Assembly: GCA_021234155.1 (NCBI GenBank)
Contig: JAJEKV010000316.1
Span: 124,001 to 188,000, forward strand
Reading direction: 5' to 3'
From: Isoetes taiwanensis
Taxonomy: Eukaryota; Streptophyta; Lycopodiopsida; Isoetales; Isoetaceae
Length of the DNA: 64,000 nt
The notes under the pieces: model-generated
The model's database searches: none
Told to the model about the DNA's origin: nothing
What the model saw: only the letters and a program-made list of their open reading frames with translations
Translations under genes and position numbers: made by a program
Part shown: in pieces, positions 4,199-64,000 of the stretch
Layout: the number at the start of each line of letters is the position of its first letter
Position numbering within the stretch: the first letter of the stretch is position 1

Positions 4199-4796
4199 GG
4201 GGAAGTGGGGAGGTGTTTTTTAGGGGTGGGAGATTTTTTTTTTGCTATTGTGGGAATTCTTTTATGATGAGGTTGAAATGGATTAGATACTCAGATCATA
4301 TGCATGTAACGCAATTACCTTATGTCCAAGTCCGAGAAGAAATGTCGAGCTCAGCCGAACTACAACATGAACGAACAAATGGCACTCGGTTGTGCCGATC
4401 TAAAATTCACTACCGTGTAAGAATGGAGCTACAAATATTCTCAAAACATATATCAAAATAAATGAAAAAAAAAAATTAACTCGTTCTATCTTTACAAAAG
4501 CATCATAATTGCCAACATTTCGTGAAGTATAATTTCCCTGCTCCCTTAAAAGCCTAAAACATAATAAGTGATTGTAAAAAAAAAAATTGATAATTGTTAA
4601 GATATAGAAAGTAAATGATACATGTACATATACATGACCTCTACCTATTTATTCTGTAAGAGGTCAGTTCATCCTATTTCTGTTCTACCTTACTCTGTAA
4701 TAGGTTAGTTCGTTCTACTTCTATTCTACCCATTTATTTCTGTTCTACCGGTTAAGTGATGGTGACTGTCACTACAAGAGTTCGAGCTCTAGCGCC

Positions 4797-5054
4797 ATGG
4801 GAGCATTATTGATATCTCATGAAGTGGACCTGCAATTCAAGGAAAGTGAAAGGTTAGGTAGCTTAGGCTTTACGGAGAGTTATGGCTGCAGATTTTTGTG
4901 CATTGCAGTTTTCAAGTGGATAATGATTCTTGGTGTTTTTGTTTCAAGCTCTTCTATCCAAAGGGAATGCCTTAGAAATTTCATGGCTAGCAGCAGAGAC
5001 TTAGGTAAAGTGGATCATTGCACCAAGGCATTTCATATCCATAGAGAAGCATAA
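4797..5054 (+). CDS. 85-codon open frame conserved in three repeat copies
   Basis: MGALLISHEVDLQFKESER continues to a hydrophobic core, FLCIAVFKWIMILGVFVSS (about residues 33-52), that could be one membrane helix. Intact 85-codon versions occur at 58054-58311 (minus) and 62571-62828 (plus), differing by only a few residues. Because the DNA copies are so similar, an intact frame in all three is weak evidence for selection. The ATG follows a conserved leader that includes CACTACAAGAGTTCGAGCTC. No homologous family was recognised. Confidence 0.35.
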   Translation: MGALLISHEVDLQFKESERLGSLGFTESYGCRFLCIAVFKWIMILGVFVSSSSIQRECLRNFMASSRDLGKVDHCTKAFHIHREA

Positions 5055-5314
5055 AATAACAAGACATTTGAATCCTCATACAATCAAAACAGACCTTATC
5101 AAGACAGTGAGTTTGATAAAAGTAAGTCTCTTCCACAAGTTCCTTAATTTTCTCAAAATATAGCCAAATATGAAGTTAATAATGGAGTGCATTAAGAAAA
5201 GGTTAAAGCTAAGGTATATTGTACAATTGATATGAAACGCATTCCTACATACTGCAACTAATCGGAGCAGTAACTTCTAAAACTATCGACAATTCTAATA
5301 TATCTCATGCGGTT

Positions 5315-6560
5315 GGCTTGAGGGCAATATTACAAAGCTGTGGAAGGCCCTGGTTGAGGAAAGGTTCTTTCCAGATCATCTATTTATTGGTGAATCAGGA
5401 GTAATGCCTGAGATACCCCAGTTTCTTGTTGAAAGTTGGCTAGCCGAATACCCAGGCAATAGTGAGGCCATTCGCAAAGAATGGGCTGAGGATAGATTGT
5501 CGCTAAAATTTATTGATTCAACTATAGTTGCCCTTTGTTGGTTCAATCTTTTTATCTTGTCATAAGGTTGAAAAAATGAAGTATGTCCAAATCCTCCTCA
5601 GCCAGTAACGACAATCACATCTTTGAGTTGTCTTGAGGTAGGTTCTTATCCTAACTTATAACAATCATATGCTCGGATTACACATTCTGGGGTGAACTAG
5701 CTGGGTACTCTGGAGAGCTGTGGATCTCCTTTCTTGAGGAAAAAGAATTTTTAATGCACCTATTTTCTTTGGCTGGAGGTGTCACCGCTAGATGGTTTGT
5801 AGCAAACAAACAATCTCTTCTTCGTGAGTTGACAGGAGTTATCGATCCAACAACTCTTGGTTCCACTACAATTGCCTGCGAGCTAATGTCCATGTTGAGT
5901 TATATGAAAGGAGGTAAAGAGTTAATCGTTGGAGGGATGGCTGCTCCAACTAAGGTAATGGATCAAGAGGATGTTTTGGAAGTCCCAAGAGGTGGAATAA
6001 AAAAAGGATGGAGAGCTTTCTTTACACCCATCTGTGGTTGCAAACAGAATTAGGAAACTGGATATGCTTGGTGTCATGAGGAGGGCAACCTTAGCCTACC
6101 TTAGCAGTCAAGAGGAGGGCAATGGAAAGAATCTGCAGGGCTCCATCTCTTCCTCAATTCATTTGGCTGGGGGAATGCTTATTTTGTGGCAAAAACTAAT
6201 TCTCCTAGGGATGTGGAGATACTTTTGAGAAGAGGATTCATCTCATGTGAACAAGGAAAATTCTATCTCCCAAGATGGAGAGCCAAGTTTAATCCAGATT
6301 GTTCTGCTTGCCATTTTATTTCCAATGTGGGGCTCGTTCAAAGGCCTAAGCTATAAGTACTGGAATGAAGATGCCTTGAAGGCGTTGTATCTGGTTGGTG
6401 AATTTATCACTTTAGAATTTTAACAGGAATTTGTGCCCAGGGTATGCTTTATGATTGATCTGAAGAAGCAAATCCTAAAATCTCATGCAAAGGCTACCCG
6501 AAGGAGCAGATTAATTTTCCCTTGAGATTAGAAGGCCTACCGCTAATTGTGAAATTTGTT
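5315..6560 (+). pseudogene. Decayed DUF4283 / LINE-ORF1-like gene in repeat copy A
   Basis: Open blocks interrupted by stops and indels read KLWKALVEERFFPDHLFIG (about 5337), then WISFLEEKEFLMHLFSLAG (about 5720) through MHLFSLAGGVTARWFVANK (5754), then SCEQGKFYLPRWRAKFNPD (about 6240). The last block matches the DUF4283 pattern of plant LINE ORF1 and zinc-knuckle proteins: a basic strand, FNP, then a 'W-S-KGL--KYWNEDALKAL' segment seen intact in copy B. Downstream, MIDLKKQILKSHAK (about 6450) fits the end of the same domain. The copy has lost about 350 bp near 6043, and stops make it non-functional. In the family the domain is thought to bind RNA in retroelement particles. Confidence 0.55.
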
Positions 6561-7533
6561 CTAACAGACTTCACGTTGGAAACTTCTTTGTTAGTAATAA
6601 ATATTCTTTGTGCATCTCCGCTGTTGTTAAAGGCAGTACTTTCGTTGTAGACCCAAACTGAAGCCTATATTCATTTGCAGAAATAACCATATTCATTTGC
6701 AGAAATAACCTCATTCATTTGCAGAAATAACCTTCCTTAGAAAACCTACTCTTTGTATTGCACCGTGAATCTCCATAGCTACCTTCATGAGAGATCTCTA
6801 CTAAGCCTCATCACCTTATAGTTGTGAGTCCGAATTTGAAGAAGCGGTTGGTGCAGGACGACCATTTTGCCTTGCACATTGTTTCAGCAGAACCATCAGC
6901 GTCTATGCTATGATCCACGCCGACCCTTTCTCTGCTCTGCTCCATGTCGACCCCTCCTCTGCTCTGCTACTGTAAAGCCTTAATAGGGCAACAATGCTGC
7001 CCATTTTATGTTGAATCGTGATCGTCCAATTATGCCAATCAAAACCTTGCTTTAGGGCTGGGTCCAACACTTACAATAAAACTTTATAATATAGGATTAG
7101 TATTTTGCATTTCTAATGGTGTCTTGACATTAGAAACAACTTAGTTTGGGTTGGTGATGGGGATAGAGTCCCTCTTTTGTAAGGTTTTCTTAATTAGCTT
7201 AATATCTATGTTTCCTCGATTGTTATATATTTGATAATATGCTTTTGTTTTCGTCTGAGTTTTCTTATCATTTTGTGAGCTTTATGCAGAGTTAAACTTG
7301 TCTAAAAGTCATGGCTTGGCAAAAATACCAGATACCACAATATTTAGATATATAATACTTCTTATTTTTTTTCTTTTCTTTTTAATTGGAAATCACATAA
7401 TATTATATCACTTTATTTCAACTCTACTAGATTATCAAAAGGTAGTATTGAAACACAAAATCTGTTATTTATTAAATTTGAAACTAAAAGTTTATTTATT
7501 AAAATATATTTTAAAGGATAATATTTTAAATAT

Positions 7534-7763
7534 ATATAGTTTTCCACGATTTATAGAGAAATAAAAGTGATTAAAGACCACCAAAGAATATAAATGGTAG
7601 TAGACGAAGATTAATACTTCAAAAAATTAAATTATTACAATTTTATAACAACGTTACAATAATAAAGTATTGAAAACTTTGTAAATCTTAACAAGTATCA
7701 TGGTACATACTAGTCTAAAGTCTATATATACTTTTAATTTAATAATTTCTTATTTATAAGGAA
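7534..7763. other. AT-rich noncoding flank
   Basis: This stretch separates the end of repeat copy A from the Helitron terminus at 7764. I see no gene or structured repeat in it. Confidence 0.5.
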
Positions 7764-23470: not shown

Positions 23471-23499
23471 ATACACTTTAGGCACAATTGATAGCTATT

Positions 23500-24496
23500 T
23501 GAGGCACTTGGCTCTAAGGACTATCGTAGAGACAACTACAAAATGAGGATCACAAACGTTTTCACAAATATCTACCCAGACAAAAATGGCTTCTTAATAT
23601 CTTAGCAATTTAAATGTGCTTTTTACCAGTTTAGTCCAATCTTTCAGTCTATCAATGTTGGTCAATGCTATAGTGATTTATTTGCTAATTGTGGTTTACG
23701 AAGACTAGAGTGGTTCTTAACGTGGTTATTAGTGGTAGTTCTCAATGTTATAATGGTTTGTTCACTACTCGTGGATTATGAGATTGTCTCGTGCATATAA
23801 TAATCCCATTGCACCTTATAGTGATCCCCTAAATAGTTTTTTCTTCCATTTCAATTCGATTCAACTCACATCTTCTTCTCAAATCGCATCTCCTCAAATG
23901 ATGTGACGTAGACATGCTCATCTTGTACATTCATCACATATCCATAATATATAACTTAATAAGCGGGGGCTTAAAATATTGTAGTAATAAATTTGTAAAC
24001 CCTAATCAATCAATATTGTTAATTTGGAATTTTCCGGTCTGGAGAAAAACACTTTTGGATTTAATTTTAGTTGATTTTTCTAAGGTTTTGGGGGCTTTTG
24101 GTTCCCGGGAAAAAAAACCGATATTCCAAAAATTGAAAAAAATTTCTTGGGCACGATTTCAATTTCGATTTTAATTTTTCCCTTTCGAATCTTCAGCATA
24201 GCGCATTCTGCTCCTTTTCATTGTTGCATGCATCTGCCACGATTGTGCGAAGGTTTATGTGGGGCATGGAAGACGGGTGGGGTGCCACCGTTGTGCTCAG
24301 AGTCTACTCTCTGTTTTACGCCATAACCTAATCGGCCAAAGTCGTGGAGTTTGTAAACCTCTGCTTTTGGTGGCTGGGAGTTCTAACGACTTCTATAACC
24401 GACATTTTGAGGTAATTATATTTGTTTCTTAAATTGTTTATGGTTCTATGATTCTGAGTCTCGATTCATCTATCAGCTATCCTGGATATTAGTATC
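23500..24496 (+). repeat. 1-kb segment duplicated at 63007-64000
   Basis: The two segments match over about 1 kb in the same orientation with scattered differences and small indels, starting at TGAGGCACTTGG. The segment includes a conserved CCACGATTGTGCGAAGG stretch and ends in a donor-like TTTTGAG|GTAATT. It looks like the promoter and first exon of the transcript that continues to about 27 kb. The copy at 63 kb still runs on at the window edge. Confidence 0.85.
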
Positions 24497-54389: not shown

Positions 54390-54902
54390 GTCGATCGATG
54401 GAAGAAATTGAAGAGTGGAAGGCTAAAAGCGGAGAATTTTGAGAAGCTTTAGGGTTTGTGTCTGTTCAGCCAAGATTTTTATAGGCAGGTTCGAAAGTAG
54501 AGATATTTAAAATATTATCCTTTAAAATATATTTTAATAAATAAACTTTTAGTTTCAAATTTAATAAATAACAGATTTTGTGTTTCAATACTAACTTTTG
54601 ATAATCTAGTAGAGTTGAAATAAACTAATATAATATTATGCGATTTCCAATTAAAAAGAAAAGAAAACAATAAGAAGTATCATAATATAATAATAACAAT
54701 CTAAAAAAATTATTAAAATATCTAACAAATCTGATTACATCTACATATTGTGGTATCTGGTATTTTTGCCAAGCCATGACTTTTAGACAAGTTTAACTCT
54801 GCATAAAGCTCACAAAATGATAAGAAAACTGAGACGAAAACAAAAGCATATTATCAAATATATAACAATCGAGGAAACATAGATATTAAGCTAATTAAGA
54901 AA

Positions 54903-55597
54903 GGGAAAAACTACAAAATAACCTTATGTTTTGACGAATTTCACGACATACCCTTGAGTTTTTATAAATTTTTGTAATACCCTTGGTCAACGTATTTTCT
55001 GTAGAATTTTGTATATCATCAAATGCCCTTGTATTTTACGTATTTCATATAAAGCCCTTTTAAATGGATGTTTTTTGGGGCAAGGATTTGACATCGGCAG
55101 TTTTCATTTTTGAATAGAAAACAGAGCAAAGATTTAGAGTTCTAACCTGATGAAATCCCAATGGAAAACCTAATTCAACCTCACATGCTTGAATCCGCTC
55201 TTCACTGCCATATAGATATGAATATCTCTGAATACCTTCATCTTGCATCTTTTCAAGAGCATTTTCCGAAGCAAAACTGAATGCGAATCCATCTCCTCCA
55301 AAAGCCATATAGTAAGACTCTAATATTCAATCATGGCTCTCAGATTTGATAGTCGTACTTGGAAAGAACCCTAATCAGATTGTCAGAATAAAATGGTATT
55401 ATCTTTCATCTTAAGGGTATTTGGTGAATTGTGTAGAATCTTAAGGGCATTTGAATAATTAACATACATCTTAAGGGCATTTGAACAATTTTCAATAATA
55501 CAAAATACGTTGACCAAGGGCATTACAAAAATTTATGAAAACTCAAGGGGATGTCATGAAATTTGTCAAAACATAAGAGTATTTTGTAGTTTTTCCC
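54903..55597. mobile_element. Pack-MULE: 695-bp Mutator-like element carrying a host gene fragment
   Basis: Left end GGGAAAAACTACAAAATA and right end TATTTTGTAGTTTTTCCC are inverted; similarity continues inward for about 95 bp (CTTATGTTTTGAC, CCCTTGAGTTTT, CTTGGTCAACGTATTTT). A 9-bp target duplication ATTAAGAAA flanks it (54894-54902 and 55598-55606). Copy A keeps the uninterrupted site at 7186-7194. Length, long TIRs and 9-bp duplication are Mutator hallmarks. The interior holds a DUF604 exon piece and no transposase. Confidence 0.93.
55147..55405 (-). pseudogene. Captured DUF604 glycosyltransferase-like exon fragment
   Basis: Inside the Pack-MULE the minus strand reads FYSDNLIRVLSKYDYQ, a short deletion, SESHD-stop-ILESYY, then MAFGGDGFAFSFASENALE, KMQDEGIQRYSYLYGSEER and QACEVELGFPLGFHQ, ending at a donor CAG|GTTAGA. 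This is the conserved core of plant DUF604 proteins (Fringe-like, putative Golgi glycosyltransferases), where '(D)NL-VLSKYDH', 'GGGGFAISYPLAKAL', 'CIQRYPGLYGSD-RIQAC--ELGVPLT-E-GFHQ' is expected. The intron junction after FHQ shows capture from genomic DNA. One stop and a frameshift break the frame. Confidence 0.88.
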
Positions 55598-56279
55598 ATT
55601 AAGAAAACCTTACAAAAGAGGGACTCTATCCCCATCACCAACCCAAACTAAGTTGTTTCTAATGTCAAGCTCCATTAGAAATGCAAAATACTAATCCTAT
55701 GATATAAAGTTCTATTGTAAGTGTTGGACCCAGCCCTAAAGCGAGGTTTTGATTGGCATAATTGGACGATCACAATTCAACACAAAATGGGCAGCATTGT
55801 TGCCCTATTAAGGCTTTACAGTAGCAGAGCAGAGGAGGGGTCGACATGGAGCAGAGCAGAGAAAGGGTCGGCGTGGATCAGAGCATAGACGCTGATGGTT
55901 CTGCTGAAACAATGTGCAAGGCAAAATGGTCGTCCTGCACCAACCGCTTCTTCAAATTTGAACTCAGAGCTACAAGGTGATGAGGCTTAGCAGAGATCTC
56001 GCATGAAGTTATCTATGGAGATTCATGGTGCAATACAAAGGGTAGGTTTTCTAAGGAAGGTTATTTCTGCAAATAAATGAGGTTATTTCTGCAAATGAAT
56101 ATGGTTATTTCTGCAAATGAATATGGGCTTCATTTTGGGTCTATAACGAAAGTACTGCCTTTAACAACAGCGGAGATGCACAAAGAACATTTATTACCAG
56201 CAAAGAAGTTTCCAACATGAAGTCTGTTAGAACAAATTTCACAAATTAGTGGGAGGCCTTCTAATCTCAAAGGAAAATT

Positions 56280-57430
56280 AATCTGCTCCTTCGGGTAGCC
56301 TTTGCATGAGATTTTAGAATTTGCTTCTTCAGATCAATCATGAAGCATACCCTGGGCACGGATTCCTGTTAAAATTCTAAAGTGATAAATTCACCAACCA
56401 GATACAACGCCTTCAAGGCATCTTCATTCCAGTACTTACAGCTTAGGCCTTTGAACGAGCCCCACATTGGAAATAAAATGGCATCAGGACAATTTGGATT
56501 AAACTTGGCTCTCCATCTCGGGAGATAGAATTCCCCTTGTTCACATGAGATGAATCCTCTTCTCAAACGTATCTCCACATCCCTAGGAGAATTAGTTTTT
56601 GCCACAAAATAAGCATTCCCCCAGCCAAATGAATTAAGGAAGAGATGGAGCCCTGCAGATTCTTTCCATTGCCCTCCTCATGACTGCTAAGGTAGGCAAC
56701 CCTCTAATTACTATGCATCCAGTAACACCAAGCATATCCGGTTTCCTAATTCTATTTGCAACCGCTTCATCTTTATCATCCTCTAGCTGCTTCTAAACTA
56801 TAGAAATTGTGGCGATTGTTTCCTATTTTTCCAACATTTCTATAGAAACGAATTTAGTAGAATTGGATGTTTTACCATAAAATTGAGGTTCTTACTATAA
56901 AATGTCCATTAATTTGGCGAATTTACTATAATCGGGATGCAATATTATCAAATTTCGGCGATTTTATGAAATTCTTTAGCGTACGCATCCTAGTAAACCA
57001 TCGAATCCAGATTTTAAAAAATGGTAAAATATAGCAACTTTACGAAGTTTCACACCTTAAAGTCATCACTGCCGTAGATAGGTGTAAAGAAAGCTCTCCA
57101 TCCTTTTTTGCTTCCACCTCTTGGGACTTCCATAACATCCTCCTGATCCATTACCTTAGTTGGAGCAGCCACCCTCCAACGATTAACTCTTTACCTCCTT
57201 TCATATAACTCAACATGGACATTAGCTCGCAGGCAATTGCAGTGGAACCAAGAGTTGTTGGATCGATAACTCCTGTCAACTCATGAAGAAGAGATTGTTT
57301 GTTTGCTACAAACCATCTAGCTATGACACCTCCAGCCAAAGAAAATAGGTGCATTAAAAATACTTTTTCCTCAAGAAAGGGGATCCACAGCTCTCCAGAC
57401 TACCCAGCTAGTTCACCCCAGAATGTGCAA
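56280..57430 (-). pseudogene. Decayed DUF4283 / LINE-ORF1-like gene in repeat copy B
   Basis: Minus blocks include MHLFSLAGGVIARWFVANK (57354), KKGWRAFF (about 57115), IRKPDMLG (about 56740), then MAKTNSPRDVEIRLRRGFI (56605), CEQGEFYLPRWRAKFNPNC and GSFKGLSCKYWNEDALKAL (56450), and MIDLKKQILKSHAK (about 56320). The central 78-codon frame (56369-56605) gives the best view of the DUF4283-like core. A possible intron lies near 56780-57070 (donor TTTAAG|GTGTGAA, acceptor near GAAGCAG), matching the part absent from copy A. Stops elsewhere make it inactive. Confidence 0.6.
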
Positions 57431-58053
57431 TCCGAGCACATGATTGTTATAAGTTAGGATAAGAACCTACCTCAAGACAACTCAAAGATGTGATTGCCGT
57501 TACTGGCTGAGAAGGATTTGGCCATACTTCATTTTTTCAACCTTATGACAAGATAAAAAGATTGAACCAACAAAGGGCAACTATAGTTGAATCAATAAAT
57601 TTTAGCGACAATCTATCCTCAGCCCATTCTTTGTGAATGGCCTCACTATTGCCTGGGTATTCGGCTAGCCAACTTTCAATAAGAAGCTGGGGTATCTCAG
57701 GCATTACTCCTTATTCACCAATAAATAGATGATCTGGGAAGAACCTTTCCTCAACCAGGGCCTTCCACAGCTTTGTAATACTGCCCTCAAGCCAACAGCA
57801 TGAGATAGATTAGAATTGTCGATAGTTTTAGAGGTTACTGCTCCGATTAGTTGAAGTATGTAGGAATGTGTTTCATATCAATTGTACAATATACCTTAGC
57901 TTTAACCTTTTCTTAATGCACTCCATTATTAACTTCATATTTGGCTATATTTTGAGAAAATTAAGGAACTTGTGGAAGAGACTTACTTTTATCAAACTCA
58001 CTGTCTTGATAAGGTCTGTTCTGATTGTATGAGGATTCAAATGTCTTGTTATT

Positions 58054-58311
58054 TTATGCTCCTCTGTGGACATGAAATGCCTTGATGCAATGATCCACTT
58101 TACCTAAGTCTCTGCTGCTAGCCATGAAATTTCTAAGGCATTCTCTCTGGATAGAAGAGCTTGAAACAAAAACACCAAGAATCATTATCCACTTGAAAAC
58201 TGCAATGCACAAAAATCTGCAGCCATAACTCTCTGTAAAGCCTAAGCTACCTAACCATTCACTTTCCCTGAATTGCAGGTCCACTTCATGAGAGATCAAT
58301 AATGCTCCCAT
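58054..58311 (-). CDS. 85-codon open frame, copy B
   Basis: This is the minus-strand twin of 4797-5054 with about six substitutions (for example RESEW for KESER, FHVHRGA for FHIHREA). It keeps the same start, length and hydrophobic centre. No function is assigned. Confidence 0.35.
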   Translation of the reverse strand: MGALLISHEVDLQFRESEWLGSLGFTESYGCRFLCIAVFKWIMILGVFVSSSSIQRECLRNFMASSRDLGKVDHCIKAFHVHRGA

Positions 58312-58789
58312 GGCGCTAGAGCTCGAACTCTTGTAGTGACAGTCACCATCACTTAACCGGTAGAACAGAAATAAATGGGTAGAATAGAAGTAGAACGAAC
58401 TGACCCGTTACAGAGTAAGGTAGAACAGAAATAGGATGAACTGATCTCTTACAAAATAAATAGGTAGAGGTCATGTATATGTACATGTATCATTTACTTT
58501 CTATATCTTAACAATTATCAATTTTTTTTATAACAATCACTTATTATGTTTTAGGCTTTTAAGGGAGCAGGGAAATCATACTTCACGAAATGTTGGCAAT
58601 TATGATGCTTTTATAAAGATAGAACGAGTTACTTTCTTTTTTCATTTATTTTGATATATATTTTGAGAATATTTGTAGCTCCATTCATACACGGTAGTGA
58701 ATTTTAGATCGGCACAACCGAGTGCCATTTGTTCGTTCATGTTGTAGTCCGGCTGAGCTCGACATTTCTTCTCGGACTTGGACATAAGG

Positions 58790-61212: not shown

Positions 61213-62074
61213 CACCTGTTCTCCTTTTACTTTACCTACAATTATCTCGATAAATGTGTTGACATTCTTTTTTTTGTCAATTTAGATATGCTTTTGATAT
61301 TATATGTATGGTAAGCATATGTATATTTAAGATATATGCTTTTTATAAGTTCTAATTATATAAGTTTATCTTTAAATAAACACTTTAATAGTTATTAAAG
61401 TATAAAATTCTCTTTCAAACTAATTTTATCTATTTAGAATTAAATATTTCAAGATATAAGATTTCAATTTTTAGAGATTTAACAAATTTAAATTTAGCAA
61501 TCATGATAATTTCTAAATGATATTCGATGGTTTGATAAGTGATAACTTAAAAATACTATGAGAATTTTCACAATTTACAAATTTTTATATTTTTTGAAAC
61601 ACTTTAAGAAAAATTTTAGATTGAAATTAATTAAATGATAAAGTTAATGGTTTAATAATAAATATTGAATAAATCAATAATAAACTATTCAATTTTTTTT
61701 TTAAATCGAAACATAAACATAATGATACATAGTTTAAACATAAATGTAATCATTTAATTAATATCAATTTAGAACTTTCTTTAAATATTTAAAAAAAAAA
61801 GCATTCTAATCATATAAAATTTATCATAGTTCAAAATTTAATTTTAAATAGATTAGAATGAAAATTAGTTTAGAAAGTAATTTTATACTTTTATCAAGCG
61901 TAAAATTACATATAATTTTATCATATTATCCTTCACATATATCTATTAGATTTGAATAAATTCAAATTTTGTTATCCTCTTTGCCACTCAAAAGCGAGTT
62001 GTTATCAAGTCAAGGGAGCACTAAAAAATAGAAAAAAACTCATCAAAAGTCTCACATTTTAATACTATCATATG

Positions 62075-63006
62075 CATGTAACGCAATTACCTTATGTCCA
62101 AGTCCGAGAAGAAATGTCGAGCTCAGCCGAACTACAACATGAACGAACAAATGGCACTCGGTTGTGCCGATCTAAAATTCACTACCATGTAAGAATGGAG
62201 CTACAAATATTCTCAAAACATATATCAAAATAAATGAAAAAAAAATTAACTCGTTCTATCTTTACAAAAGCATCATAATTGCCAACATTTCGTGAAGCAT
62301 AATTTCCCTGCTCCCTTAAAAGCCTAAAACATAATAAGTGATTGTTAAAAAAAAAATTGATAATTGTTAAGATATAGAAAGTAAATGATACATGTATATA
62401 TATACATGACCTCTACCTATTTATTCTGTAAGAGGTCAGTTCATCCTATTTCTGTTCTACCTTACTCTGTAACAGGTTAGTTCGTTCTATTTCTATTCTA
62501 CCCATTTATTTCTGTTCTACCGGTTAAGTGATGGTGACTGTCACTACAAGAGTTCGAGCTCTATAGCGCCATGGGAGCATTATTGATCTCTCATGAAGTG
62601 GACCTGCAATTCAGGGAAAGTGAAAAGTTAGGTAGCTTAGGCTTTACGGAGAGTTATGGCTGCAGATTTTTGTGCATTGCAGTTTTCAAGTGGATAATGA
62701 TTCTTGGTGTTTTTGTTTCAAGCTCTTCTATCCAAAGGGAATGCCTTAGAAATTTCATGGCTAGCAGCAGAGACTTAGGTAAAGTGGATCATTGCACCAA
62801 GGCATTTCATGTCCACAGAGGAGCATAAAATAACAAGACATTTGAATCCTCATACAATCAAAACAGACCTTATCAAGACAGTGAGTTTGATAAAAGTAAG
62901 TCTCTTCCACAAGTTCCTTAATTTTCTCAAAATATAGCCAAATATGAAGTTAATAATGGAATGCATTAAGAAAAGGTTAAAGCTAAGGTATATTGTACAA
63001 TTGATA
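62075..63006 (+). repeat. Dispersed repeat copy C, truncated
   Basis: It matches 4295-5233 of copy A from CATATGCATGTAACGC to CAATTGATATGA, then breaks abruptly. At the break it joins a copy of 23500 onward through a few shared bases (TGAGGCAC). The 85-codon frame is intact at 62571-62828. Confidence 0.88.
62571..62828 (+). CDS. 85-codon open frame, copy C
   Basis: This is the third copy of the frame at 4797-5054, reading MGALLISHEVDLQFRESEK and ending AFHVHRGA. It is closest to copy B. No function is assigned. Confidence 0.35.
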   Translation: MGALLISHEVDLQFRESEKLGSLGFTESYGCRFLCIAVFKWIMILGVFVSSSSIQRECLRNFMASSRDLGKVDHCTKAFHVHRGA

Positions 63007-64000
63007 TGAGGCACTTGGCTCTAAGGACTATCATAGAGACAACTACAAAATGAGGATCACAAACGTTTTCACAAATATCTACCCAGACAAAAATGGCTTC
63101 TTAATATCTTAGCAATTTAAATGTGCTTTTTACCAGTTTAGTCCAATCTTTCAGTCTATCAATGTTGGTCAATGCTATAGTGATTTATTTGCTAATTGTG
63201 GTTTACGAAGACTAGAGTGGTTCGTAACGTGGTTATTAGTGGTAGTTCTCAATGTTATAATGGTTTGTTCACTACTCGTGGATTATGAGATTGTCTCGTG
63301 CATATAATAATCCCATTGCACCTTATAGTGATCCCCTAAATAGTTTTTTCTTCCATTTCAATTCGATTCAACTCACATCTTCTTCTCAAATCGCGTCTCC
63401 TCAAATGATGTGATGTAGACATGCTCATCTTGTACATTCATCACATATCCATAATATATAACTTAATAAGCGGGGGCTTAAAATATTGTAGTAATAAATT
63501 TGTAAACCCTAATCAATCAATATTGTTAATTTGGAATTTTCCGTCCCGAGAAAAACACTTTTGGATTTAATTTTAGTTGATTTTTCTAAGGTTTTGGGGC
63601 TTTTGGTTGAAAAAAAAAAAAAAAACCGATATTCCAAAAATTGAAAAAAATTCCTTGGGCACGATTTCAATTTCGATTTTAATTTTTCCCTTTCGAATCT
63701 TCAGCATTATGCTCCTTTCCATTGTTGCATGCATCTGCCACGATTGTGCGAAGGTTTATGTGGGGCATGGAAGATGGGTGGGGTGCCACTTGGTTGTGCT
63801 TTCGAGTCTACTGCTCTTTTATGCCATAACCTAATCGGCCAAAGTCGTGGAGTTTGTAAACCCTCGCTTTTGGTGGCCGGGAGTTCTAACGACTTCTATA
63901 ACCGACATTTTGAGGTAATTATATTTGTTTCTTAAATTGTTTATGGTTCTATGATTTCGAAGTCTCGATTCATCTATCGCCTATCCCGGATATTAGTATC
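63007..64000 (+). repeat. Second copy of the 23.5-24.5 kb segment
   Basis: It matches 23500-24496 in the same orientation with small indels (for example a longer A run at 63609-63625). It includes the conserved TTGTGCGAAGGTTTATGTGG stretch and the donor-like TTTTGAG|GTAATT at about 63913, then leaves the window. Whether the downstream exons seen after 24.5 kb also exist here is unknown. Confidence 0.88.

Follow-up and report, generated by a model that had tools for sequence, protein, structure and literature searches.

Structure of the element and its captured fragment

The analysed window is a 64,000-bp stretch of the Isoetes taiwanensis genome (contig JAJEKV010000316.1, positions 124,001 to 188,000), in which positions 54903-55597 are occupied by a complete, unstranded copy of a non-autonomous Mutator-like element (MULE) of the Pack-MULE type, 695 bp long. 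Its left terminal inverted repeat (TIR; 54903-54997, plus strand) starts with GGGAAAAACTACAAAATA, and the right TIR (55503-55597, minus strand) is the inverse of that end. The two 95-bp repeats are 93% identical, and their similarity fades further inward, about 128 bp being alignable at 86%. The element is bordered by two copies of ATTAAGAAA (54894-54902 and 55598-55606, neither assigned a strand), which match at 9 of 9 positions. The boundaries, the length and the approximately 95-bp TIRs given in the initial annotation thus proved exact to the base, and the 9-bp duplication it claimed is present.

Between the TIRs lies captured host DNA (55105-55411, minus strand, right edge approximate), delimited by its match to a parent gene and made up of DUF604 exon sequence and, beyond the donor GT, about 42 bp of the parental intron. 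The open exon part of 58 codons (55147-55320, minus strand) matched Pfam profile PF04646 at 67 bits, well above the cut-off of 25 bits (E=2.3e-18), so that the proposed DUF604 identity withstood the profile search on which it hinged. The GT donor at 55146-55145 (minus strand) has been retained in the context CATCAG/GTTAGA, aligned with and identical to that of the parent, again as proposed. The captured piece is larger than had been described, since it reaches past the open exon into an upstream exon part (55321-55411, minus strand), which alignment to the parent revealed to be out of frame through small deletions common to the family. A solved-structure search with the 58-residue fragment gave no match, and a literature search for DUF604 inside transposons returned nothing relevant.

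A high-copy family with 9-bp target site duplications

The element had been treated as a lone copy. It is instead a member of a family whose DUF604 core occurs at about 68 places or more. Searching the whole genome (1.66 Gb) with the element, as the initial annotation had suggested, yielded siblings with the same TIRs genome-wide; 40 places were scored, the best non-self matches being 84-91% identical and most of them about full length. A 33-bp TIR consensus pattern, allowing up to 3 mismatches, matched 583 times in the genome, compared with 0 matches for the reversed control. A 33-bp DUF604-core pattern matched 70 times, two of these being copies of the parent gene, which leaves at least 68 non-gene places. 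Near full-length copies measure 665-863 bp. For the 20 copies with both ends available, identity between the 9-mers on the two sides was 0.711, compared with 0.383 after shuffled re-pairing; flank identity peaked at exactly 9, with no excess for 8- or 10-mers. Together, the TIR counts and the 9-mer identity exclude chance, and the distinct flanks of most siblings speak against derivation of the 9-mers from one shared repeat. With 68 core places set against 108 profile matches, about two in three DUF604 matches in this genome are transposon copies, by which gene-family counts would be inflated.

Four family copies lie within 70 kb on C1071 (748996-818314; L003, L004, L008 and the copy at 774605), and three of them have common flanks, suggesting a local segmental duplication bearing the element.

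Empty sites and the order of insertion

Comparison of the window with itself revealed a duplicated host segment, of which arm A (4318-7542, minus strand) is empty and arm B (54494-58789, plus strand) bears the element. In the inverted arm A, the undisturbed target is a single ATTAAGAAA at 7186-7194 (minus strand), and the site reads exactly AGCTAATTAAGAAAACCTTAC on the reverse strand. When the element and one 9-mer were removed from arm B, its flanks aligned unbroken to the reverse complement of arm A. The empty site, with one 9-mer and no element, is thus as originally reported, and two further empty duplicates of the host segment were found on C414 and C49. The initial annotation had regarded the element as dated by the empty site; this stands as a relative order, with insertion after arm B split from the three empty duplicates, and fails as an absolute age.

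The same difference between the arms could reflect precise excision from arm A and not insertion into arm B. In the unrooted arm tree, where arm B has diverged furthest, a single loss on the opposite side would formally be just as parsimonious. We nevertheless consider excision very improbable: arm A and the duplicates on C414 and C49 are all empty, each retaining a single 9-mer without any footprint. Furthermore, counting changes at A/T sites only, the window copy differs from the family consensus at 6 of 458 sites (1.3%), less than the 2.5% on arm B's own branch, as expected for an element that arrived along that branch. Insertion after the arm B split is consistent with these values, whereas total divergence alone (4.5% versus 3.3%) would have pointed to the reverse sequence of events.

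The arms also differ by a second segment, of about 300 bp, which arm B has (approximately 56773-57080) and arm A lacks. The arms are also part of a near-identical repeat set (94-98%) present in both orientations at 4295-5235, 23484-24496, 57873-58789 and 62067-64000 of the window, with further copies on C414, C1059 and C49.

Decay of the family copies

Among 27 copies, transitions affected 11.6% of CG, 10.9% of CHG, 4.5% of CHH and 1.7% of A/T sites, a pattern which, by established knowledge, would be expected of methylated DNA. The copies differ from the consensus by about 4.5%, most by 4-5%; because of the cytosine transitions, this total overstates their age. Silent, replacement and stop-making changes in the exon numbered 66, 150 and 27; the remainder of the element predicts 69, 144 and 12, indicating that coding has not been kept. 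Spread of the fragment as a functional coding unit, for which the 58 open codons of the window copy could be cited, is accordingly very improbable, given frame-shifting deletions common to the family, a neutral silent/replacement ratio and stop-making changes above expectation.

The parent gene and the edges of the capture

The parent DUF604 gene lies at 7.176 Mb on C996, with a 99% copy at 1.308 Mb on C922. Positions 207-514 of the family consensus match the C996 gene at 80% identity (E about 1e-90), continuing through the donor into the intron, and a maximum-likelihood tree pairs the element clade with the C996/C922_1.31M gene as sister groups (support 99/99). Only chance matches to the TIRs were found around the parent locus on C996 and C922 (flanks to about 1.5 kb). 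The parent sought in the initial annotation therefore exists, and it does not share the element's TIRs over that distance. The stem from the parent gene to the element clade is about 0.19 changes per site, compared with 4-5% for the copies, so the capture long predates the spread.

Relatives that have these TIRs but no DUF604 fragment share consensus positions 1-163 and about 516-711 with the family. As the relatives resume at about 516 and the parent match ends at 514, two independent right-side edges meet at 514-516. On the left side, 43 bp (consensus 164-206) fall outside both matches, which counts against the capture account, and in a longer subfamily (L044) this gap is extended by about 150 bp, to about 190 bp in total. 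The junction was inspected for capture microhomology and proved too ambiguous for a claim. The family is short, non-coding, TIR-bearing and high in copy number, as MITEs are, but a plain MULE-derived MITE without capture, its DUF604 similarity being convergent or transposon-derived, can practically be dismissed despite this small size, abundance and lack of coding constraint, because the homology to a single gene continues across an exon boundary into its intron, the fragment groups with this same gene in the tree, and relatives bear the same TIRs without the fragment.

Assignment to the Mutator-like elements

A relative at C71:23112-26249, located through a TIR end close to a MuDR-like match, is 3,138 bp long, has the same TIRs (82-83%) and is flanked by a perfect 9-bp duplication, TTTATTAAT. 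DBD_Tnp_Mut (1.1e-5), MULE (6.7e-11) and SWIM (3.6e-5) domains lie between its TIRs. The combination of a MuDR-type transposase, the same termini and a 9-bp duplication shows that these termini belong to Mutator-like elements, giving direct support to an identity that the initial annotation had drawn from the 9-bp duplications. Its transposase gene is broken and degenerate and its TIRs resemble the family's at only about 82%, which weighs against the account preferred here; no intact autonomous element was found.

The 9-bp duplication falls within the 9-11 bp of MULEs, and the 95-bp TIRs (about 128 bp at 86%) are at the short end of their typical 100-500 bp (PMC3310237). The family also combines the features of Pack-MULEs, namely a host gene fragment within a non-autonomous MULE, a parent elsewhere without TIRs, and mobility evident from different sites, target duplications and empty sites. 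A Helitron, which has neither TIRs nor target duplications, is ruled out by the presence of both, and a hAT element, with 8-bp duplications, by a duplication signal that appears for 9-mers but not for 8-mers. A CACTA element (3-bp duplications) is excluded by the single-copy 9-mer at the empty site, length 3 lying outside the tested range.

Two further loci were considered and rejected. L086 (C1065) resembled a 7.35-kb autonomous element with a MuDR-like fragment between two TIRs; a pair of TIR elements, set in flanks that are tandemly duplicated and with the transposase lying beyond them, looks likelier. L085 (C1050) was rejected as a Pack-MULE with PPR gene pieces because the end of the PPR part is common to unrelated loci; that part is probably another repeat nested in a short MULE.

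Proposed origin and comparison with known elements

The account that we regard as very probable is that a non-autonomous Mutator-like element took up about 345 bp of the DUF604 gene between its subterminal regions, comprising part of one exon with its donor site and the first stretch of the following intron, and then lost a few short pieces. Capture may have followed a repair-type route, by analogy with gap filling during repair, a proposed capture model for Pack-MULEs (PMC8277862). The common termini and 9-bp duplications point to cut-and-paste mobilisation by a MuDR-type transposase acting in trans on the common TIRs, and a transposase of the C71 type would have moved the family copies. The element would thus have spread to about 68 places or more with 9-bp target duplications, the window copy inserting into arm B once the host segment had been duplicated. 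The copies sampled have decayed neutrally and show the mutation pattern of methylated cytosines, and they are probably silenced by the host.

The elements constitute a well-documented, probably new Pack-MULE family, high in copy number and of a kind already known. Of the 14 copies in the tomato Pack-MULE family PM-ZIBP, 13 have tandem TIRs at each end (PMC3310237). The present family resembles PM-ZIBP and Pack-MULEs in general in being non-autonomous and multicopy, with MULE TIRs, 9-11 bp target duplications and a traceable parent gene (PMC3310237), but differs from PM-ZIBP in having at least about 68 copies, nearly all single TIRs among those sampled, and another captured gene. Some DUF604-family copies adjoin one another (L043/L053 at C1036:17337223-17338162, and C1074:46365-47118), resembling the tomato tandem-TIR arrangement. 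A grapevine Mutator family that contains cellulose synthase exon and intron sequence (PMC2528002) is similar as a MULE carrying host intron and exon, although a different gene is involved. As in other multicopy Pack-TIR or Pack-TYPE elements, captured DNA has been amplified by transposition with a target duplication that differs per copy (PMC8277862, PMC8903248); for a captured fragment, the present copy number is high, though we claim no record. The locus offers a complete worked case in one plant genome: the parent gene and the edges of the capture are in hand, as are a relative bearing a transposase, several empty sites and an insertion of known relative order.

Possible effect on the parent gene and a second DUF604 dispersal

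Perfect matches of at least 21 nt to the parent DUF604 gene occur in 30 of 32 sampled copies, and perfect 21-nt matches to five paralogues in nearly none (one copy, one paralogue). As a transcript, the window copy is predicted to fold into a long hairpin (z=-12.9); its own longest match to the parent is only 16 nt. The hairpin fold and the 21-nt matches make it conceivable, if unlikely, that putative small RNAs from the family silence the parent DUF604 gene, and that one gene, in trans.

A second, separate dispersal of DUF604 sequence was observed at seven loci (L035, L038, L039, L041, L042, L048 and L049), where about 440 bp of a gene at 29.115 Mb on C1018, split in some, lie inside 2.3-kb repeats without TIRs. 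The aligned repeats end in CCCCTGTTATAATGCTA(G/C)ATAT or near it. A repeat terminus ...TGCTAGATAT is common to DUF604 pseudogene loci and to inserts lying within MULE relatives (L085:406-6003, L086:5397 onward, L028 and L040), and the L085 insert with this terminus bears PPR fragments.
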